This document shows positions 3,499-46,775 of a DNA stretch of 64,000 bases, one piece after another. Under the pieces are notes generated by a model. The model saw nothing but the letters and a program-made list of their open reading frames with translations, was not told the origin of the DNA and ran no database searches. Both the position numbers and the translations under genes were made by a program. Numbering within the stretch: position 1 is the first letter of the stretch; each line of letters opens with the position of its first letter. Source of the stretch: Candidatus Chlorohelix allophototropha (lineage in GTDB: Bacteria > Chloroflexota > Chloroflexia > Chloroheliales > Chloroheliaceae); assembly GCF_030389965.1 (NCBI RefSeq), contig NZ_CP128399.1:2532934-2596933 (forward strand), in the 5' to 3' direction.

Positions 3499-3514
3499 TT
3501 GGTAAGGTGTATAC
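3499..3514 (+). repeat. Left inverted repeat of IS3-family element
   Basis: It matches the complement of 4724-4742 with two single-base gaps and one mismatch. It lies immediately before the transposase ATG. Confidence 0.6.
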
Positions 3515-3522
3515 TTAAAAAC

Positions 3523-4677
3523 ATGACAACACCTAGAAAAAAGTATTCACCCACATTTAAGTCTCAAAGAGTGCAAGAAGTGCTGGAAGGTAATAAAACC
3601 CTTACCCAGATAGCTTCTGAATATGGTATTCATCCGAATATGCTCACTAAATGGAAACAACTGGCTCTAAAAGGTCTGCCACAATCCTTTGATGAGCGTA
3701 CTCAGAAGCAAATCGCGCTGCTGACCGCACAGTACGAACAAGAAAAAGAACAACTTTACGCCGAAATAGGTCGCCTGACTACACAGCTCAGGTGGTTAGA
3801 AAAAAAAGTGAAGCAGGCTTTGCCCAGGTCGGTCAGATTAAGCCTAATCGAAACCCAAAAAGCTGAACTTTCACTCTCAAAACAAAGTGAGTTGCTAGGA
3901 ATTAGCCGTTCCAGTTTGTACTACCGCTCAGTAGCACCAACCGAACGAGAAATTGAGCTCAAACACCGAATTGATGAGATTTACACCGTTTACCCTTTTT
4001 ATGGATATCGGCGAATTCATCAACAATTACTGCGGGAAGGCAAGCACCTCAACCGCAAAACGGTGCAAAACTATATGCGGGAGATGGGGCTAGAAGCAAT
4101 CTATCCTGGTCCTAATCTTTCGAAACGAGATCAAAAGCAGCGGGTATATCCCTATCTCTTAAGGAACCTGGCTATAACCAGACCCGCTCAGGTATTCGGT
4201 ACCGACATCACATATATCAAGCTCAAACACGGTTGGCTTTATCTGGTGGCTGTCATCGACTGGTACAGCAGATATGTGGTAAGTTGGGAATTATCTGATA
4301 CTCTGGAAATCGATTTTGTGCTTAGAACTACCGAGCGAGCGTTGGCGAAGATAAAACCGGAGATCTTTAACAGTGACCAAGGTAGTCATTTTACCAGTCC
4401 TAAATACACTGCTTTGATATTGGGCGCAGGTGTAAAGTTAAGTATGGATGGACGTGGGCGAGCACTAGATAATGTTTTCACCGAAAGGCTCTGGCGTTCC
4501 TTAAAATATGAGTGTGTTTATTTAGCACAATTTGAGAACCCCAAAGAAGCAAAGCTAGGGATTGGTGAGTATTTCGATTTCTACAATAATACTCGACCTC
4601 ATCAGGCTTTGAAATATCAGACACCGGCTCAGGTTTATTTCAATACCGTGACACCAGTAATTATGTTAAAGAGCTAA
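3523..4677 (+). CDS. IS3-family transposase, OrfA and OrfB in one frame
   Basis: The protein begins with a Tnp_1-type helix-turn-helix (ASEYGIHPNMLTKWK, about residues 30-45), then a leucine-rich coiled coil. The OrfB half follows: an HTH_21 segment (YPFYGYRRIH) and an rve integrase core with the DDE triad in GTDITYI, NSDQGSHF and FTERLWRSLKYE. In most IS3 elements OrfA and OrfB are joined by a -1 frameshift; here they form one uninterrupted frame of 384 codons. I chose the ATG at 3523 because an upstream TTG start would lie inside the terminal repeat. The gene looks intact, so the element may still be active. Confidence 0.92.
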   Translation: MTTPRKKYSPTFKSQRVQEVLEGNKTLTQIASEYGIHPNMLTKWKQLALKGLPQSFDERTQKQIALLTAQYEQEKEQLYAEIGRLTTQLRWLEKKVKQALPRSVRLSLIETQKAELSLSKQSELLGISRSSLYYRSVAPTEREIELKHRIDEIYTVYPFYGYRRIHQQLLREGKHLNRKTVQNYMREMGLEAIYPGPNLSKRDQKQRVYPYLLRNLAITRPAQVFGTDITYIKLKHGWLYLVAVIDWYSRYVVSWELSDTLEIDFVLRTTERALAKIKPEIFNSDQGSHFTSPKYTALILGAGVKLSMDGRGRALDNVFTERLWRSLKYECVYLAQFENPKEAKLGIGEYFDFYNNTRPHQALKYQTPAQVYFNTVTPVIMLKS

Positions 4678-23946: not shown

Positions 23947-24975
23947 CTACTTTTCGTGATTTGCCTGGGGTAAAAATCTCCAAGCTGCGAATATGCCACC
24001 TATTAGTACAAGTGCCCATAACCCTAAATTTATCAGGTCGGAAACCAATTGAGGTGACTTGTCGCCTTGCTGTAAGGTCAGGTCAACCCAAGCAGATACC
24101 GCCTTCTTGCTCAAACGCTCGCCCTGTCCGCCATCCCAAACCGCGAAAGCTACCTGCGTACCGTATTCGTCACCCGCCTTCGTACCTACCAAATCAACTG
24201 CGTTTTTGCGATCACTCAGTTTTTCTTGGCGCATAAAAATCAGAGTCCACGTTTTGTTGACCGGATCGTAAACGGCTTTGCTATCAGGGTCATACTTTGC
24301 CGGGTCAATCAAGTAAGCGGGGTTTGGTCCGACCCAGTTTTTAGCGGCTTTGAGACCGCCACTGGTTAAGACCGGCTCAAAGCCTTGCGCACGGGTAATA
24401 TCAGCGTCACGCTCTGCTTTCCATTGCCAGATATTGACTAGCGCATCGATTTGACCCATGCAGCGGAAAGCTTGCCGCCCTACGTGCTGTTCAGGGTCGA
24501 GAGGGAATTCGATAGCCGCCGCATCGCTAAAGGTTTGCTGAGTACCTTGGACTGTCTCGCCTGTATTTAGGGAATCATCTTTCCACTGTAGCCAGATAGC
24601 AACATTTTTACCATCGTGCGCCGCTTTTGCCCTTATTTGGGAAACCGAACCGCCGTATTCTTTTACGAAAAACTGCGCGCTCAGAGGTACAATTGCCGCT
24701 TCTACCTTCGCGCCACCCGGTAGTGTGGCGTTGTCATCCCAAACAGGCGCATTGGGGTTTAAAAACGTGCTACCTTGATCAGGCAGATAAAGTGCTACTA
24801 ATTTATTTGTATCCGCGCTTACGGGCTGAAAATTTACAGCCCACATTAACATAGCCAACGCAAAAGCCATGCCGATTACCGCTACTGGATACATCCGGTT
24901 GGAATGATGCACAGGGACGGGCGCAGAGGTTGTAAGCTGGCTTTGTATCTTGTCTGTTATATCAACTGTCTCCAT
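23947..24975 (-). CDS. Membrane-anchored EB_dh-type heme b protein, last gene of the b6-type operon
   Basis: The 342-residue protein has an N-terminal membrane helix (30-48), an extracytoplasmic domain of the ethylbenzene-dehydrogenase gamma-subunit/heme-b-binding type, and a C-terminal helix (about 316-335). The heme region reads FRCMGQIDALVNIWQWK (170-186); M173 is the likely axial ligand and the second is probably a Lys further on. In known enzymes this fold passes electrons to or from a molybdopterin subunit, but none is encoded here. It follows the di-heme cytochrome c by 28 bp, so it is probably an extra redox subunit or electron acceptor of the complex. Confidence 0.8.
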   Translation of the reverse strand: METVDITDKIQSQLTTSAPVPVHHSNRMYPVAVIGMAFALAMLMWAVNFQPVSADTNKLVALYLPDQGSTFLNPNAPVWDDNATLPGGAKVEAAIVPLSAQFFVKEYGGSVSQIRAKAAHDGKNVAIWLQWKDDSLNTGETVQGTQQTFSDAAAIEFPLDPEQHVGRQAFRCMGQIDALVNIWQWKAERDADITRAQGFEPVLTSGGLKAAKNWVGPNPAYLIDPAKYDPDSKAVYDPVNKTWTLIFMRQEKLSDRKNAVDLVGTKAGDEYGTQVAFAVWDGGQGERLSKKAVSAWVDLTLQQGDKSPQLVSDLINLGLWALVLIGGIFAAWRFLPQANHEK

Positions 24976-25003: not shown

Positions 25004-25924
25004 CTACTTGGTAGGTGTAGGCGTGGCTTGATCTAGCGCCTTGACTGTTACGGGCGCTCTTTTTAACTCAGAAATATAGTCCACGATTGTATTCCGCTCG
25101 TCTACCGTCATCTGGATTGCAGGCATCCAAGTGGGTTGCATCGGCCAAAACTCGGTTCGCGCGGTAGAATATTGGCTGAACCATGGTTGCACGTTCGGTC
25201 CTCGGTTGCTATCAGGAACTTTAGTAGGATCTTCAATCCAAGTATAAAGCCAATCACGGGTGCGACGGCTGCCCACTTCGGTAAGGTTTGGAGCAAGCGT
25301 AGTTCCGGCGCTGCCTATAGCGTGGCAGTTGAGGCAACCCTTCTGCATTATCAGCTTCTTGGTACTAGCAAGCTCTGCATCCAGCGCCGCTTTCTGTTGA
25401 ACTCCCGCAGGAGTAGTCTTGTCGGCATCGGGATATTTGGCTTTCTGTGCGGCGTTTGCCGGAAGGTCGGCACTAAAGTTAGGATTCTGAGTATAAGTCA
25501 GCACCTGCAAAACATCATCCCAGTTTCCGTAGATAATATAAGTAATTATGAAATCAATTTGCTCATCGGTTAAAGGACCACCAAAGTTGCGAGACCAAGC
25601 GGGCATCGCTATACCCGGTTGAGGACTGAATTGACCACGAGTCATGGCTTTGTTAATAAAATCGTAAGTAGAATTGAAATCAAAGTTTTTGTCGCCCGGT
25701 TTCCAGCTTGGACGATTAAGGGCGGGACCAATTGCGCCTTCTCCCTTTGGTCCATGACATTGAGAACAGTTTGCCGCAAAAAGCTGCGCCCCCTTCAGAA
25801 TCTCTTCATCCCGGTTTGATATTGTTGTTAGAGAAGCACGACTGTTATCGTTCAAGATATACAAGAGCATCCCCAGCACTACGGCAAGCGCAAACGCAAT
25901 GCTCATCACCATTCTGGTGGACAT
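25004..25924 (-). CDS. Membrane-anchored di-heme cytochrome c
   Basis: The 306-residue protein has an uncleaved N-terminal anchor (about 5-23) and two class-I cytochrome c domains. The first has C53-x-x-C56-H57 with likely Met ligand M107; the second has C197-x-x-C200-H201 with likely Met ligand M267. It lies 56 bp after the Rieske gene. It probably plays the cytochrome f/c1 part, as the di-heme cytochrome c does in the heliobacterial pet operon. It would oxidise the Rieske cluster and pass electrons to a periplasmic carrier or the EB_dh protein. Confidence 0.92.
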   Translation of the reverse strand: MSTRMVMSIAFALAVVLGMLLYILNDNSRASLTTISNRDEEILKGAQLFAANCSQCHGPKGEGAIGPALNRPSWKPGDKNFDFNSTYDFINKAMTRGQFSPQPGIAMPAWSRNFGGPLTDEQIDFIITYIIYGNWDDVLQVLTYTQNPNFSADLPANAAQKAKYPDADKTTPAGVQQKAALDAELASTKKLIMQKGCLNCHAIGSAGTTLAPNLTEVGSRRTRDWLYTWIEDPTKVPDSNRGPNVQPWFSQYSTARTEFWPMQPTWMPAIQMTVDERNTIVDYISELKRAPVTVKALDQATPTPTK

Positions 25925-25980: not shown

Positions 25981-26595
25981 TTAAGCCTGAGTCTGCATTG
26001 AAACATTATGTTTTTCGCGACGAGTTATTTTCCCAGTATCCACAATTACTCTACCGCCAGTGGTAGTCATTGCCATATAATCCAACGGGCGAGGAGCAGG
26101 TCCACCAAAGTTTTGACCGCTATAAATGTAGAGAGAACCATGGCAGGGACAGTGAAAAATCCCTTTATAGCTTTTGCCTTCGTAAGTGCCGCTTTCATCC
26201 GGCGCCCAAGGTACGGTACAACCAAGATGCACACACTTCCAGTAGAGCGCCATAAAACCGCCGCCATCCTCTTTCCGCAAATGTACCAACCATAAGCGAC
26301 CATCCGATATTTTTGTGACAGTACCTTCTGGATAATCGGTAACAGCGCCTAACGCAATTTTGCTACCGAAAGTACCCACTTTCTTAGGCCAGAAGAAAAG
26401 CAGAAAGGTTGCCGCGCCCCCAATGGTAAAAGCAGTCATAGTACCTAGAAAGGAATTGCGCATAAAGCGGCGGCGGGTTATTTTTGCCTCTTCTTCCAGT
26501 TCTTGAGGTGTAGGCTTATACCCCCCGCCATCCTCGCCGGTTTGCTCTGGGGTGGTTACAACTACCGGCTTACCATCCTTATATATAATTGCCAT
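25981..26595 (-). CDS. Rieske iron-sulfur protein of the b6-type complex
   Basis: The 204-residue protein carries a Tat-like TRRRFMRNS motif (40-48), one membrane helix (about 50-70) and a Rieske domain. Cluster ligands are C121, H123, C149 and H152, and C126/C151 can form the stabilising disulfide, so this is a high-potential-type fold with CxHLGC and CPCHGS intact. It takes electrons from quinol at the outer site of cytochrome b and hands them to the cytochrome c encoded next. Confidence 0.95.
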   Translation of the reverse strand: MAIIYKDGKPVVVTTPEQTGEDGGGYKPTPQELEEEAKITRRRFMRNSFLGTMTAFTIGGAATFLLFFWPKKVGTFGSKIALGAVTDYPEGTVTKISDGRLWLVHLRKEDGGGFMALYWKCVHLGCTVPWAPDESGTYEGKSYKGIFHCPCHGSLYIYSGQNFGGPAPRPLDYMAMTTTGGRVIVDTGKITRREKHNVSMQTQA

Positions 26596-26679: not shown

Positions 26680-27594
26680 TTAATGCTTAGGAGGCATCGC
26701 CCAAGGCCAGAAGAAATCCTGACCGGGACCACGCATTGCCGTACCAACTATAGTTAGAATGAAATAAGAAATTACAAAGCCAGTGAATAATGCCTGGAAT
26801 ATATCCCGACGGTCTGCTCCAAACCGCTTTCGCACTATAAAAGCCAGCAAAGTGGCTAGCCCAAATATAGCTAAAAGCGGTATTACCCAGTTACCTAACA
26901 CTACATCAAGGCTGGTAGGCGCGAACCCAAATTTATCGGTAGGATCGCCACCCATAATCGGCACTTTTATGCTGGACAGGAAAGTAGAGCGCAAAATCTT
27001 ATTTAGGTTAAACAGCACGTCAAAGGCAATGAGGAAAATAATCCAGCCAGCAGTAAAAACCGCGCTGAAAATTACCACCGCTTTACCTCTGTCGCTTGTA
27101 AACCAGCGCCCCATTTGCCCGGTTCCGGTATCAAAGTAGGGTATCAGCCCAATCAGCAACAATGCGCCGCTAGGAATAATAACCCCCGCCAGAGCCGGGT
27201 CCATATGCAGCAAAAGCTCTTGCAAGTTTAAGAAGTACCAAGGCGCTTTGGAAGGGTTGGGAGTTTGCTCCGAGTTAGCAATACCTTCCAAAGGCGCATA
27301 AATCAACGCCGAGGTAATGAACAATGTTATGGTAAAAACTATGGCGCATAGGAACTCTATCATTACCAGATGAGGCCACACATGCACAATGGTAGAAGGT
27401 TCTTTGTAAGGAGGCGTATTGACCGACTCCTTTTTAATTACCGCCAGCAAACGATGGCTACGCGCTTTATCAAGTGGATTGCTAGGGTCTTGTCGTTTGC
27501 GACGGGCAATTTCACGCTCTGCTTCGGTACTGGCATCGACAGTAGCAGCAGTTTGTTGACCCTCTGGATTTGCCTTACTTTCAATTTCTGCCAT
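26680..27594 (-). CDS. Cytochrome b C-terminal part, subunit IV-like
   Basis: The 304-residue protein begins with about 75 soluble residues, then five or so membrane helices. The quinol-site motif PEWY appears as APWY in KAPWYFLNLQELL near residue 117, a form I know from menaquinone-type bc complexes. No heme-ligand His pair is present, as expected for the C-terminal half. It is 48 bp downstream of the b6-like gene. The extra helices beyond the three of plant subunit IV resemble the longer C-terminal half of bc1 cytochrome b. Confidence 0.9.
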   Translation of the reverse strand: MAEIESKANPEGQQTAATVDASTEAEREIARRKRQDPSNPLDKARSHRLLAVIKKESVNTPPYKEPSTIVHVWPHLVMIEFLCAIVFTITLFITSALIYAPLEGIANSEQTPNPSKAPWYFLNLQELLLHMDPALAGVIIPSGALLLIGLIPYFDTGTGQMGRWFTSDRGKAVVIFSAVFTAGWIIFLIAFDVLFNLNKILRSTFLSSIKVPIMGGDPTDKFGFAPTSLDVVLGNWVIPLLAIFGLATLLAFIVRKRFGADRRDIFQALFTGFVISYFILTIVGTAMRGPGQDFFWPWAMPPKH

Positions 27595-27642: not shown

Positions 27643-28395
27643 CTACAAACCGCCGCTAAAACCATCTTTGCGGACACGCCAAAAGTGTACTGCCATCAAC
27701 ACGGCGGCGATCAATGGTAAAGCAATCACATGGAGTGTGTAGAAGCGTATAAGCGCGTTCTGACCGATTTCATACCCACCGATGAGCAGGAATTGGGCTT
27801 CAGGACCAAGAAAAGGAGTAACTTTTGCGATATTTGTACCGACCGTAACCGCCCAGAAAGCCAGTTGATCCCACGGCAATAGGTAGCCGCTAAAACTGAG
27901 CAGGAAGGTTACTACCAATAGTAATACGCCCACAATCCAGTTAAACTCACGGGGAGGGCGATAGGCGCGAGTGTAAAACACGCGGCACATATGCAGAAAG
28001 ACAGTTATAACCATTGCGTGCGCCGACCAGCGGTGCATATTGCGCAAGAATTGTCCGGCAAAAACTACCGTTTCGAGGTCTTTTATATTCTGGTAGGCTT
28101 GCGTAACCGAAGGCACATAGTAGAACATCAAAAGCACGCCGGAAACGGTTAGCACCAGAAAGAAGAAAAAACTCAACCCACCTAGACAGAAAGTATAAGT
28201 AACTTTTAGGGAAGCACGGCGGATTGTAGTAGGATGCAGATGAAGGAAAACATTGCTCATAGTCGCCAGTGAGCGAGTACGGGCGCTATCGGGCCAACTA
28301 TGTCTGAAAATGCTTTTCCAGACTCTAGAACCAAACTCCTCAGTACCTTTGAGGAAATTTTGAACAAATTTCTGGGAATCTTTATTGGTAGCCAT
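27643..28395 (-). CDS. Cytochrome b6-type subunit with heme c_i cysteine
   Basis: The 250-residue protein has four membrane helices and two heme pairs, H121/H135 and H222/H237. The 14 residues between the second pair are the b6f spacing, not the 13 typical of mitochondrial bc1. C70 in FCLGG aligns with the Cys35 of b6 that binds heme c_i; its distance to the first His is 51 residues in both. HRWSAH near 121 and [13 protein letters not shown] near 170-182 are diagnostic. It has an unusual N-terminal extension of about 45 residues. It is the core of a quinol:cytochrome c oxidoreductase. Confidence 0.94.
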
Positions 28396-28474: not shown

Positions 28475-30319
28475 TTATTTGGGAATTGGCGCGCTTAAAC
28501 CCTTTTCACTGACATACCAGTGGTCTTTCGGGTCGCTGTAAACAAAGCGTGCCATTTTAATTGCCTGAGTGGGACAACGTACCACACACAAACCACAACG
28601 AATACATTCATTCTCATCGAGAATGAGGGTCTGAGCTTCTGACAAAGCCGGGTCAACCTGATATTGGTCTGCCCCTGCAACCCCCATCAGTTCGCTCAGC
28701 GGAACCAGACGGATGATTTTCTCAGGGCAAACATCTACACATGCGGCACATAAAATACAAAGGTCGGCATCTATCAGAATGTTATAGGCGCATTGCAGGC
28801 AGCGAGTGGCTTCCTTCATCGCCATTTCACGGGTAAAGCCCAGTTCAACTTCTATTTCAAGATTCCGGCGCATGTCCTGACCCCAACGGTTCTCAAGCGG
28901 AAGAGTCGGCATGGGCTGGCGATCAAGTTTTTCATAGTCAAGGGTGCGGCGCCAGACTTCCAGCACTTCATGATTGCTCCGACGGCGGGGCGGTCTGTCT
29001 CCGGTAAGAAATTCATGAATACCGTTCGCAACTTTGTGACCATCCGCTACCGCCGAAATAATATTGCGCGCGCCTTCGGTATAATCACCACCGGCGAAAA
29101 GGCGCGGAACGGAGGTCATCCACGAATCTGGATCGCGCCAAACGTTGCCGTTCTTGAGAACCCGCACACCTAATTCCTTCGGGAAGAAATTTACGTCACT
29201 CGATTGCCCGGTTGCCGCCAACACTACATCGCAGGGAATTATAAATTCGCTACCCGGCACAGGGCGGGGAGAACGGCGACCTTTGGCATCGGGTTCGCCC
29301 AGTTTGTTGCGAATCATTTTGATAGCAGTAACTTTACCGTTCCCATCACCCAGTACCTCAACTGGACTTACTAACCACAAGAAATCAATATTCTCATATT
29401 CCATTTCTTCCATTTCGGTTTCATCCATAGGGGCTTCTAACTGGGTGCGGCGATAGGCAATATAGACTCTTTCTGACCCCATACGTAGCGAAGAGCGGGC
29501 GCAGTCGGAGGCGGTAAAGCCCGCGCCGATTACAACCACGCGCTTGCCTACTGTGGCATGTTCGGGATGGTGGAAGTTGATTTTTTCCAGCCACGATAGA
29601 CCGTACTCAAACCCTTTCAGATTTTCGCCGGGGATACCAAGCTTAGAAGGTAGTTGGCAACCGGGTGCAAGAAATACCGCGTCAAAATTCTTCAACAGAT
29701 CGGTAACCTGCACATCCTTGCCAACCCGCGTGTTAAGATGAATCTCAACACCAAGCGCATCCATATATTCATCTATTTCGTTCTGTACCACATCGCGAGG
29801 CAAACGCCAGATTGGAATACCACCCACCAGCATACCACCCGGTTCAGGGAACATATCGAACACTACGGTGCGATAGCCCATAATGCGCAAGTCACGCGCA
29901 CAGGCAAGACCGGCAGAACCTGCCCCAACAATCGCAATCTTTTCCTTGCGAGTAATGGGGGGACGCTTTGGTACAAATTTATCACTACGGAAATCGCTGG
30001 AACTGCGTTTCAAATAACAAATACGAATAGTTTTATCAATCAAACCTCTCCGGCAAGTGCTTTCACAGGGACGGGCGCAAATACGACCCAGAATACCCGG
30101 AAATACATTATCACGCCGATTCAGCAAATAAGCTTCATCAAAACGCCCCTGCGCTACCAAACCAATGTAGTTACTCACATCGGTGTGAGCAGGACAGGTA
30201 TATTGGCACGGTATATTAGTGCGAAACCAGTCGGTATCGGGCAATTCAGTTGGGTATGCGCCATCAGACGCTTCTGCAAAGCGAATATCCGCGTTTTTCT
30301 GAAATTTGTCATTCATCAT
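28475..30319 (-). CDS. GltD-like FAD/NAD(P)H oxidoreductase with extra 4Fe-4S clusters
   Basis: The 614-residue protein has an N-terminal iron-sulfur domain (C38, C42, C81, C85, C89), an FAD-binding GAGSAG at 132-137, an NAD(P)-binding GAGFTASD near 270, and a C-terminal ferredoxin domain with CILCAACVDVCP and CIRCGLCVVRCP for two 4Fe-4S clusters. It resembles the small subunit of glutamate synthase and NfnB, but there is no GltB-type partner; instead it heads the b6-type operon. It may pass electrons between NAD(P)H or ferredoxin and the quinone pool through cytochrome b, which is inference. Its ATG overlaps the stop of a tiny membrane protein gene by ATGA. Confidence 0.9.
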   Translation of the reverse strand: MMNDKFQKNADIRFAEASDGAYPTELPDTDWFRTNIPCQYTCPAHTDVSNYIGLVAQGRFDEAYLLNRRDNVFPGILGRICARPCESTCRRGLIDKTIRICYLKRSSSDFRSDKFVPKRPPITRKEKIAIVGAGSAGLACARDLRIMGYRTVVFDMFPEPGGMLVGGIPIWRLPRDVVQNEIDEYMDALGVEIHLNTRVGKDVQVTDLLKNFDAVFLAPGCQLPSKLGIPGENLKGFEYGLSWLEKINFHHPEHATVGKRVVVIGAGFTASDCARSSLRMGSERVYIAYRRTQLEAPMDETEMEEMEYENIDFLWLVSPVEVLGDGNGKVTAIKMIRNKLGEPDAKGRRSPRPVPGSEFIIPCDVVLAATGQSSDVNFFPKELGVRVLKNGNVWRDPDSWMTSVPRLFAGGDYTEGARNIISAVADGHKVANGIHEFLTGDRPPRRRSNHEVLEVWRRTLDYEKLDRQPMPTLPLENRWGQDMRRNLEIEVELGFTREMAMKEATRCLQCAYNILIDADLCILCAACVDVCPEKIIRLVPLSELMGVAGADQYQVDPALSEAQTLILDENECIRCGLCVVRCPTQAIKMARFVYSDPKDHWYVSEKGLSAPIPK

Positions 30320-30429
30320 TCTTCTTCGTCGATGCCTCCGGTTGCCTTTTGAATATACATTACGATTAAAATTGAAATCACTATCATGGCAACAACTACG
30401 ACTAACTCAAGTGACTCACCGACTACCAT
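30316..30429 (-). CDS. 37-residue single-helix membrane protein at the head of the b6-type operon
   Basis: ATG at 30429 has AGGAAG ten bases upstream. The frame of 37 codons ends in TGA that overlaps the oxidoreductase start (ATGA), a sign of translational coupling. Residues about 9-26 are a continuous hydrophobic helix of Val/Ile/Leu/Met; the end is acidic (GGIDEEE). Size, topology and place recall PetG/PetL/PetM/PetN, the small subunits of b6f complexes, though sequence homology cannot be claimed at this length. It would be skipped by most gene callers. Confidence 0.75.
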   Translation of the reverse strand: MVVGESLELVVVVAMIVISILIVMYIQKATGGIDEEE

Positions 30430-45361: not shown

Positions 45362-46775
45362 GTTACAAGTTAAGGTAGCAAAGTAAATGTCAAATAAGAA
45401 GAGGTCTTTTGGAAGGGCGTTTGACAATCCCTAATAACTTGGCATTTTGAGCCAGATACTGAGAAACACTCAAGGTTTCTCCCCGCTTTAAGGCCTGGCT
45501 GTAATGGTATAACCCCCGATAGACCATTTCTACTGAGATTGCCTTAAAAGGTTGTTTTAGTTCTTCCGCTACGCTGTCGGTCAAGTCTATCAAAACACAA
45601 TACAATAACCAGGTAGCCCAGACCTGCAGGCAGATCGCATTTATGCTGCCGGCGTGAAAATAAGCCAGACCCAACTGCCGTTTTACTACCTTAAAAGCCT
45701 CCTCGATCCGCCACCGCTGGCGATAAAGATAGGCTATCGTAGCTCCAGTTAAACGGGACCTCTCCAACACATTGCTCAAATAACAATAACTTTTCCCCTC
45801 CCATTCCACTGCCACCAGACGCAGTACCTGCTCACTTTTCTCTTCTTTGGAACCCACCGCGATCAACCACTCCCGCACTCCCTCCTCATTGGTTAGCGCT
45901 TGCACCACCCGGTAGTCCATCCTACTTTTTACCCGTGTCACAAAGTACTTGTGCTCCACCGTCAACTGCCGGTAACGGCCATAATTTACAAAGCCCAGAT
46001 CAAACAGCGTCAAACTCTCTGTTTCCAAAGTCTCGATAATGGCTTCCCACCAGCTCTGATCGTGGGCTGCGCTATTTTCACCATACCAGATTTTGAGGGG
46101 TAACTGGCTGGCTACATCCAGCAAACCCATCATTTTCCCCGCTAAGACGCTGCCTTCTATTTCTCGCAGTAAACCGGTTTTCTTGATCAAAGCATCCAGG
46201 GTGGAACCATCCACCGCGGCCACCCGGCTGAAGTGGGCTAAAACCCTTTGCAGCTCAGGTGGCAGAGGACGCTGACGCTGGCGCCAACGCTGGTGCATCA
46301 GGGGCAGCACTTCGTTTAGGACCGCTTCAAACAGAGCCGCTGGCATTTCCCGCAGGCGTTGACTGATCGCTTGCTGAGTGACCCTGATCGGCGGCTGCCA
46401 TAACATTCCTTCTTGCTTGATTACTCTGACCGCTTCAGAGACGGCCCCGATCTGACGCCAGATCAGACTGAGGACGAAAGCCAGCATTACTGGCAGGGTC
46501 AGAGTACGCGCCCGTAAGCCCATTTCCTGATAGAGCCGGATCAGACTAAAAGTGTTGGGTTGCACCACTTCCGCCAGCAGTTGCTCGATTTCTTCGGGCG
46601 GGGGAGCGATCGTGGGTCTTTTTGAGCGATCAAGGGCGATGGCTCTGGTATGCCGCACACTACTCGCTTTTTTTGGTGGTTTTTCTTCTTTTTCCATCGC
46701 CCTATTGTAATTGGAATAGGGCTTTTTTTCACCTCGTATTGATTTGACTTATCTCCTAATCCCTTAACTTGTAAC
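45362..46775 (-). mobile_element. IS4-family insertion sequence
   Basis: One transposase gene is bounded by an exact 14-bp inverted repeat, GTTACAAGTTAAGG (45362-45375) and its complement (46762-46775). A 12-bp direct repeat ATGAGCTAAGGG stands just outside both ends, with 5 bases between on the left and 2 on the right. Confidence 0.85.
45390..46697 (-). CDS. IS4-family transposase
   Basis: The 435-residue DDE transposase shows AVDGSTLDAL near 163 (first D), LFDLGFVNYG near 230 (second D) and YRQRWRIEEAFKVVK near 336 (the Y-(2)-R-(3)-E-(6)-K signature of IS4). The N-terminus is a basic and helical DNA-binding region. It is full length and uninterrupted, and its GC content is visibly higher than in the flanks, which points to recent arrival. 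Confidence 0.93.
   Translation of the reverse strand: MEKEEKPPKKASSVRHTRAIALDRSKRPTIAPPPEEIEQLLAEVVQPNTFSLIRLYQEMGLRARTLTLPVMLAFVLSLIWRQIGAVSEAVRVIKQEGMLWQPPIRVTQQAISQRLREMPAALFEAVLNEVLPLMHQRWRQRQRPLPPELQRVLAHFSRVAAVDGSTLDALIKKTGLLREIEGSVLAGKMMGLLDVASQLPLKIWYGENSAAHDQSWWEAIIETLETESLTLFDLGFVNYGRYRQLTVEHKYFVTRVKSRMDYRVVQALTNEEGVREWLIAVGSKEEKSEQVLRLVAVEWEGKSYCYLSNVLERSRLTGATIAYLYRQRWRIEEAFKVVKRQLGLAYFHAGSINAICLQVWATWLLYCVLIDLTDSVAEELKQPFKAISVEMVYRGLYHYSQALKRGETLSVSQYLAQNAKLLGIVKRPSKRPLLI

Follow-up and report, generated by a model that had tools for sequence, protein, structure and literature searches.

A putative one-helix subunit encoded at the head of a b6-type operon in Candidatus Chlorohelix allophototropha

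To our knowledge, the small one-helix subunits of the cytochrome b6f complex are known solely from oxygenic phototrophs. The gene cluster for the b6f-like complex of Heliobacteria codes for a separate b6 and subunit IV, a Rieske protein, and a diheme cytochrome c, and we know of no one-helix subunit of this complex. A cluster of Candidatus Chlorohelix allophototropha has been described as related to this heliobacterial cluster, the main text of the report not saying which of two loci is meant (PMC10972752). The operon analyzed here lies in a window of 64,000 nucleotides of the same organism (contig NZ_CP128399.1, positions 2,532,934–2,596,933) and resembles the heliobacterial cluster in its separate genes for b6 and subunit IV, its Rieske gene, and a cytochrome c with two CxxCH motifs. 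Its first gene codes for a membrane protein of 37 residues, probably a one-helix component of the b6-type complex that has not been described before; judged by its sequence, it is unrelated to the small subunits of plants and cyanobacteria.

The operon and its first gene

The small gene is located on the minus strand (30316–30429); it starts with an ATG at position 30429 and comprises 37 codons and a TGA ending at 30316. Its translation is MVVGESLELVVVVAMIVISILIVMYIQKATGGIDEEE. An AGGAAG ribosome-binding site is found 9 nt upstream of the start codon (30444–30439), and the stop codon overlaps by four nucleotides with the start codon of the following GltD-like gene in an ATGA sequence (30319–30316). 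On the plus strand the same stretch contains several stop codons. The protein has a single hydrophobic segment and is almost entirely helix: AlphaFold2, run with six aligned sequences, modeled one helix from residue 3 to 30 with a mean pLDDT of 86. It is devoid of cysteine, histidine, and CxxC motifs and has no soluble domain. Thus, the description given in the sequence-only reading, a hydrophobic one-helix frame of 37 residues with its own AGGAAG site and an ATGA overlap at the head of a b6-type operon, agrees in each of these points with our results.

The genes that follow, all on the minus strand, code for a GltD-like FAD oxidoreductase of 614 aa that carries 4Fe-4S domains (28475–30319; Pfam Pyr_redox_2, Fer4_20, and Fer4), cytochrome b6 (PetB-like, 250 aa, 27643–28395; identified by domain and PDB matches), a subunit IV-like protein (304 aa, 26680–27594; Pfam Cytochrom_B_C), a Rieske iron-sulfur protein (204 aa, 25981–26595; Pfam Rieske), a cytochrome c (306 aa, 25004–25924; Pfam Cytochrom_C, two CxxCH motifs read from the sequence), and a heme protein of 342 aa that resembles ethylbenzene dehydrogenase and has a hydrophobic segment at its C-terminal end (23947–24975; Pfam EB_dh). 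The GltD-like protein is 71–75% identical to its counterparts in four further genomes of the same family (G001–G004), and the EB_dh-like gene occurs in the b6 operon not only of the window but also of G001, G003, and G004, and of G008 from another family of the class. The best PDB matches of the b6 protein are b6 chains (E 6e-48), and its Cys70 (in FCLGG) aligns with the cysteine of the YCLGG motif of plastid and cyanobacterial b6, which has a role in binding heme ci. A b6 with this type of cysteine, a separate subunit IV, and a Rieske protein characterize the operon as coding for a b6-type complex. As a cytochrome c with two CxxCH motifs replaces cytochrome f, for which the window operon has no gene, the complex is not a b6f complex in the strict sense. 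The genome has a second Rieske–cytochrome b locus (contig C2, 2313382–2313987, L131), in which the b subunit is one protein of ∼583 aa, ∼42% identical to the window b6. Elsewhere in the window there are two transposase-like genes (3499–4677 and 45390–46697), by eye IS3-like and IS4-like.

Conservation and distribution of the small protein

According to the sequence-only reading, lack of conservation in related genomes would have spoken against the gene. In fact the frame is kept in G001, G003, and G004 as an orthologue of 38 aa with 62–65% identity, and in all three the ATGA overlap with the GltD-like gene and the downstream gene order are retained. Between the window and these relatives 21–23 of 31 codons are changed, 10–12 of them silently, with 16–19 third-position changes and one second-position change. 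The NG86 method yields a dN of 0.23 and a dS of 1.2–2.2 (for the two window–relative pairs with computable dS), and among the three relatives themselves 3–6 of the 31 codons compared differ, all of them silently. This substitution pattern shows that the small frame codes for protein and is under purifying selection. It is a real gene and not a chance frame because the overlap is shared, the substitutions are mostly silent, and relatives occur in other b6 operons. In G002 a profile search detected no copy above noise; the operon is interrupted by a contig end in this genome (C19, L036), where GltD and b6 are found without a small gene before GltD and the rest of the operon is unassembled. A second member of the family was likewise not found in the window genome by a whole-genome profile search.

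Relatives outside the family were searched for with a profile built from three sequences of the window's family. Among 4,419 frames in 66 b6 regions all nine matches outside the family immediately precede b6 or follow cytochrome c; these zones contain 9.6% of the short frames. A second set comprised 10,536 frames from both strands of 80 loci chosen by b6 similarity alone. Here, 17 matches (E ≤ 1) were obtained, 17 of 17 on the b6 strand and, where positions were checked, at or near the ends of the operon, whereas 30 column-shuffled profiles gave 0–1 matches on the same frames; as some of the genomes are related, these matches do not represent independent events. Weak profile matches in G012 and G328 were discounted as chance. 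Bridging sequences also came from the 80 loci of the second set, among them MIFGEVGETLELVGVVITIFSALGIMVALGKYWES and MEVGEFLELVFVFVTIFLGLAIMVAFGKWWER, whose frame stops at most 10 bases away from the b6 match, as did a Thermomicrobiales-type group. In HHalign the groups of the family are joined with 92–98%, except groups II and IV with 11–14%; one-helix proteins are easily paired by convergence, and a SecG decoy reached 25%. The members are mostly 32–43 aa long, with an acidic N-terminus carrying a near-invariant ExxEL, one helix, and a basic C-terminal side, often with Q-K/R or G-K/R-W-W.

Two members were found in assemblies labelled Thermaerobacter marianensis, by name outside Chloroflexota (L181 6217–6330 and L195 5382–5495). 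The b6 operons of a further family (f17; one matching locus is labelled Ca. Amunia, the others Ca. Dormiibacterota) contain further short frames for one-helix proteins, three at most, before the Rieske gene and after cytochrome c (with b6 turned to the plus strand, L090 160–297, 3430–3552, and 3552–3695; L091 6051–6185 and 9356–9478; L126 5477–5611 and 8704–8832), which have no sequence match to the window's small-protein family.

The gene neighborhood differs between lineages. In G008 the orthologue, MVVGETIELLIVFGTIIFTLAILYAIERFTGDDTKEIDQ, is directly before b6, and the relative of GltD was found on a different contig. A related protein with a C-terminal GRWWQK, GKWWER, or similar sequence is encoded directly before b6 in five further families (f65, f78, f84, f87, and f95), while the relatives in f52 (G238 and G161) and likewise in f42 are located after cytochrome c. 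Many lineages with a family member have neither a GltD nor an EB_dh gene within the operon region examined. A tie of the small gene to GltD was rejected because of the gene order in G008 and the arrangements after cytochrome c; as far as gene order tells, it tracks cytochrome b6 and not GltD. Five families (f38, f41, f58, f64, and f74) encode their member apart from b6, often with a bactofilin-like gene as its neighbor, and no member was seen in those of their b6 operons that were inspected; a weaker relative in f62 is also unlinked. Unlinked members adjoining a bactofilin-like gene, for example, MVVSEGMELVIMFIVIMLNLLILVWLQKWSGLT, were seen at loci L059, L061, L066, and L130 of f74, f64, and f38.

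A tie to phototrophy was rejected as well. The gene of the FMO antenna protein, the sole marker used, is present in the window genome and G002 only; G001, G003, and G004 lack it and keep the small gene, and the FMO-bearing G002 shows no copy. By these genomic comparisons the family travels with b6-type complexes in many Chloroflexota, most of which are not known as photosynthetic.

Among 400 Chloroflexota genomes, 34 of the 35 with a member (E < 1e-8) also contain a close b6 (Fisher p = 2e-15, kinship ignored), the one exception, G210, having a b6 fragment only; this test is partly circular because some profile members were chosen for their position beside b6. With the non-circular profile of the window's family alone, seven matches (E < 0.005) are found outside its own genome, all of them in genomes with a close b6. 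The member is not universal among b6 carriers, as it occurs in 34 of the 146 genomes of the sample with a close b6 and most of the b6-bearing genomes have no detectable member.

Possible function of the small protein

How might such a protein serve the complex? The absence of a soluble domain and of cofactor residues, together with the steady association with the b6 core, makes a structural subunit the simplest reading, and we consider it likely that the small protein is a peripheral one-helix subunit of the b6-type quinol:cytochrome c oxidoreductase of Chloroflexota. The sequence-only reading had raised the possibility of a structural subunit, and the genomic data (conservation, linkage to b6 in several orders, independence of GltD, and co-occurrence) speak for it; no homology to PetG, L, M, and N, with which that reading drew a parallel, was detectable. 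Against a structural subunit we have to weigh that the family is not universal, that the gene is unlinked in several families, and that G002 has no copy.

The flanks of the helix carry a pronounced charge bias: in 29 sequences the N-terminal flanks contain 4 K/R and 75 D/E, the C-terminal flanks 38 K/R and 26 D/E. The N-terminus is therefore predicted to be on the p-side, and the basic C-terminus would be cytoplasmic. At the edge of the dimer, the helix could pack on cytochrome b6 and subunit IV; it might, as PetG, L, M, and N in b6f, contribute to assembly, stability, or the packing of lipids or quinones. The ATGA overlap would couple translation of the small gene to that of GltD.

The main rival to a structural subunit is a factor for assembly or maturation of the b6-type complex, which would, for example, help to insert heme or to dock the Rieske protein or cytochrome c without being a stoichiometric subunit. 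Genomic linkage to b6 fits such a factor equally well, and its unlinked position in some families and its absence from many b6 carriers would be in line with it. Nevertheless, we regard an assembly factor as rather unlikely, as the window protein consists of almost nothing but the helix and offers no soluble domain, Cys, His, or CxxC motif that would suggest a cofactor role. Still less probable is a small membrane protein serving another partner encoded in the operon, such as the GltD-like flavoprotein, cytochrome c, or the EB_dh-like protein. The predicted translational coupling to GltD in the window and its three relatives and the position after cytochrome c in some lineages could be cited in its favor, but in G008 the gene is beside b6 without GltD, and in many lineages neither GltD nor EB_dh is found in the operon region examined, a point which does not bear on cytochrome c. 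Finally, a leader or chance frame with the sole role of aiding GltD translation, as its shortness, first position, and ATGA overlap might suggest, is largely refuted by amino acids that are kept while silent sites change and by relatives that are not next to GltD but follow cytochrome c or are unlinked.

Comparison with known one-helix subunits

The structural subunit that we prefer would not belong to any of the known Pet families. Pfam searches with relaxed cut-offs (E up to 1 or 5) gave no match to PetG, PetL, PetM, or PetN, and NCBIfam yielded no credible match for the small protein; a profile search of the PDB returned a viral glycoprotein as the only match (E 2.7), which was taken as chance. 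In HHalign the window group reached 3.1% with PetG, 0.46% with PetL, 0.65% with PetM, and 0.32% with PetN, compared with 25% for the SecG decoy; the other groups gave 0.2–0.9% with PetG and at most 7.2% with PetL, PetM, or PetN (group III with PetL). Of the reference sequences in these alignments, those of the Pet subunits were confirmed against PDB chains. PetG carries a Gly8/Gly12 (GG4) pair in its helix (PMC1540425), and this pair is absent from the window protein, which has no glycine in the helix core. Membership in the PetG, L, M, or N families was thus rejected on the results of Pfam and of HHalign with its decoys and, for PetG, on the missing glycine pair.

That the family could be an ancient subunit of Chloroflexota b6-type complexes which preceded their phototrophy and is a distant homologue of PetG or PetM appears quite improbable to us; if it were true, the one-helix fence of b6f would be older than oxygenic photosynthesis. 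If it is a separate Chloroflexota family, b6-type complexes would have gained helices of this kind repeatedly or at an earlier time than is assumed. Its carriers include Chlorohelix, a phototroph with a type I reaction center, as well as relatives without the FMO antenna gene, and it provides a defined gene to seek once a b6-type complex of Chloroflexota is purified. We found no earlier description of such a Chloroflexota subunit in the open-access literature.

Other quinol oxidases and bc complexes possess supernumerary one-helix subunits as well, for example, CydX and CcoQ, which are similar to the small protein in size and in their single helix but belong to different partner complexes; with CydX, HHalign gave ≤0.6%. 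In general terms the small protein fits the class of one-helix b6 subunits, as it has a single helix, is shorter than ∼45 aa, and its gene is linked to or co-occurs with the b6 core, though not universally. The parallel to PetG, L, M, and N drawn in the sequence-only reading therefore extends to size, the single helix, and the predicted orientation, whereas no homology was detected. PetG, L, M, and N have 29–38 aa in the solved structures and one helix, an acidic or uncharged N-terminus, a basic C-terminal side, and a b6-type partner; the small protein has 37 aa, one helix, the same distribution of charges, and presumably the same type of partner. In contrast, it is found in Chloroflexota, mostly without known phototrophy genes, and has no sequence match to them. 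By analogy, the small protein would at most work like PetG, L, M, and N.
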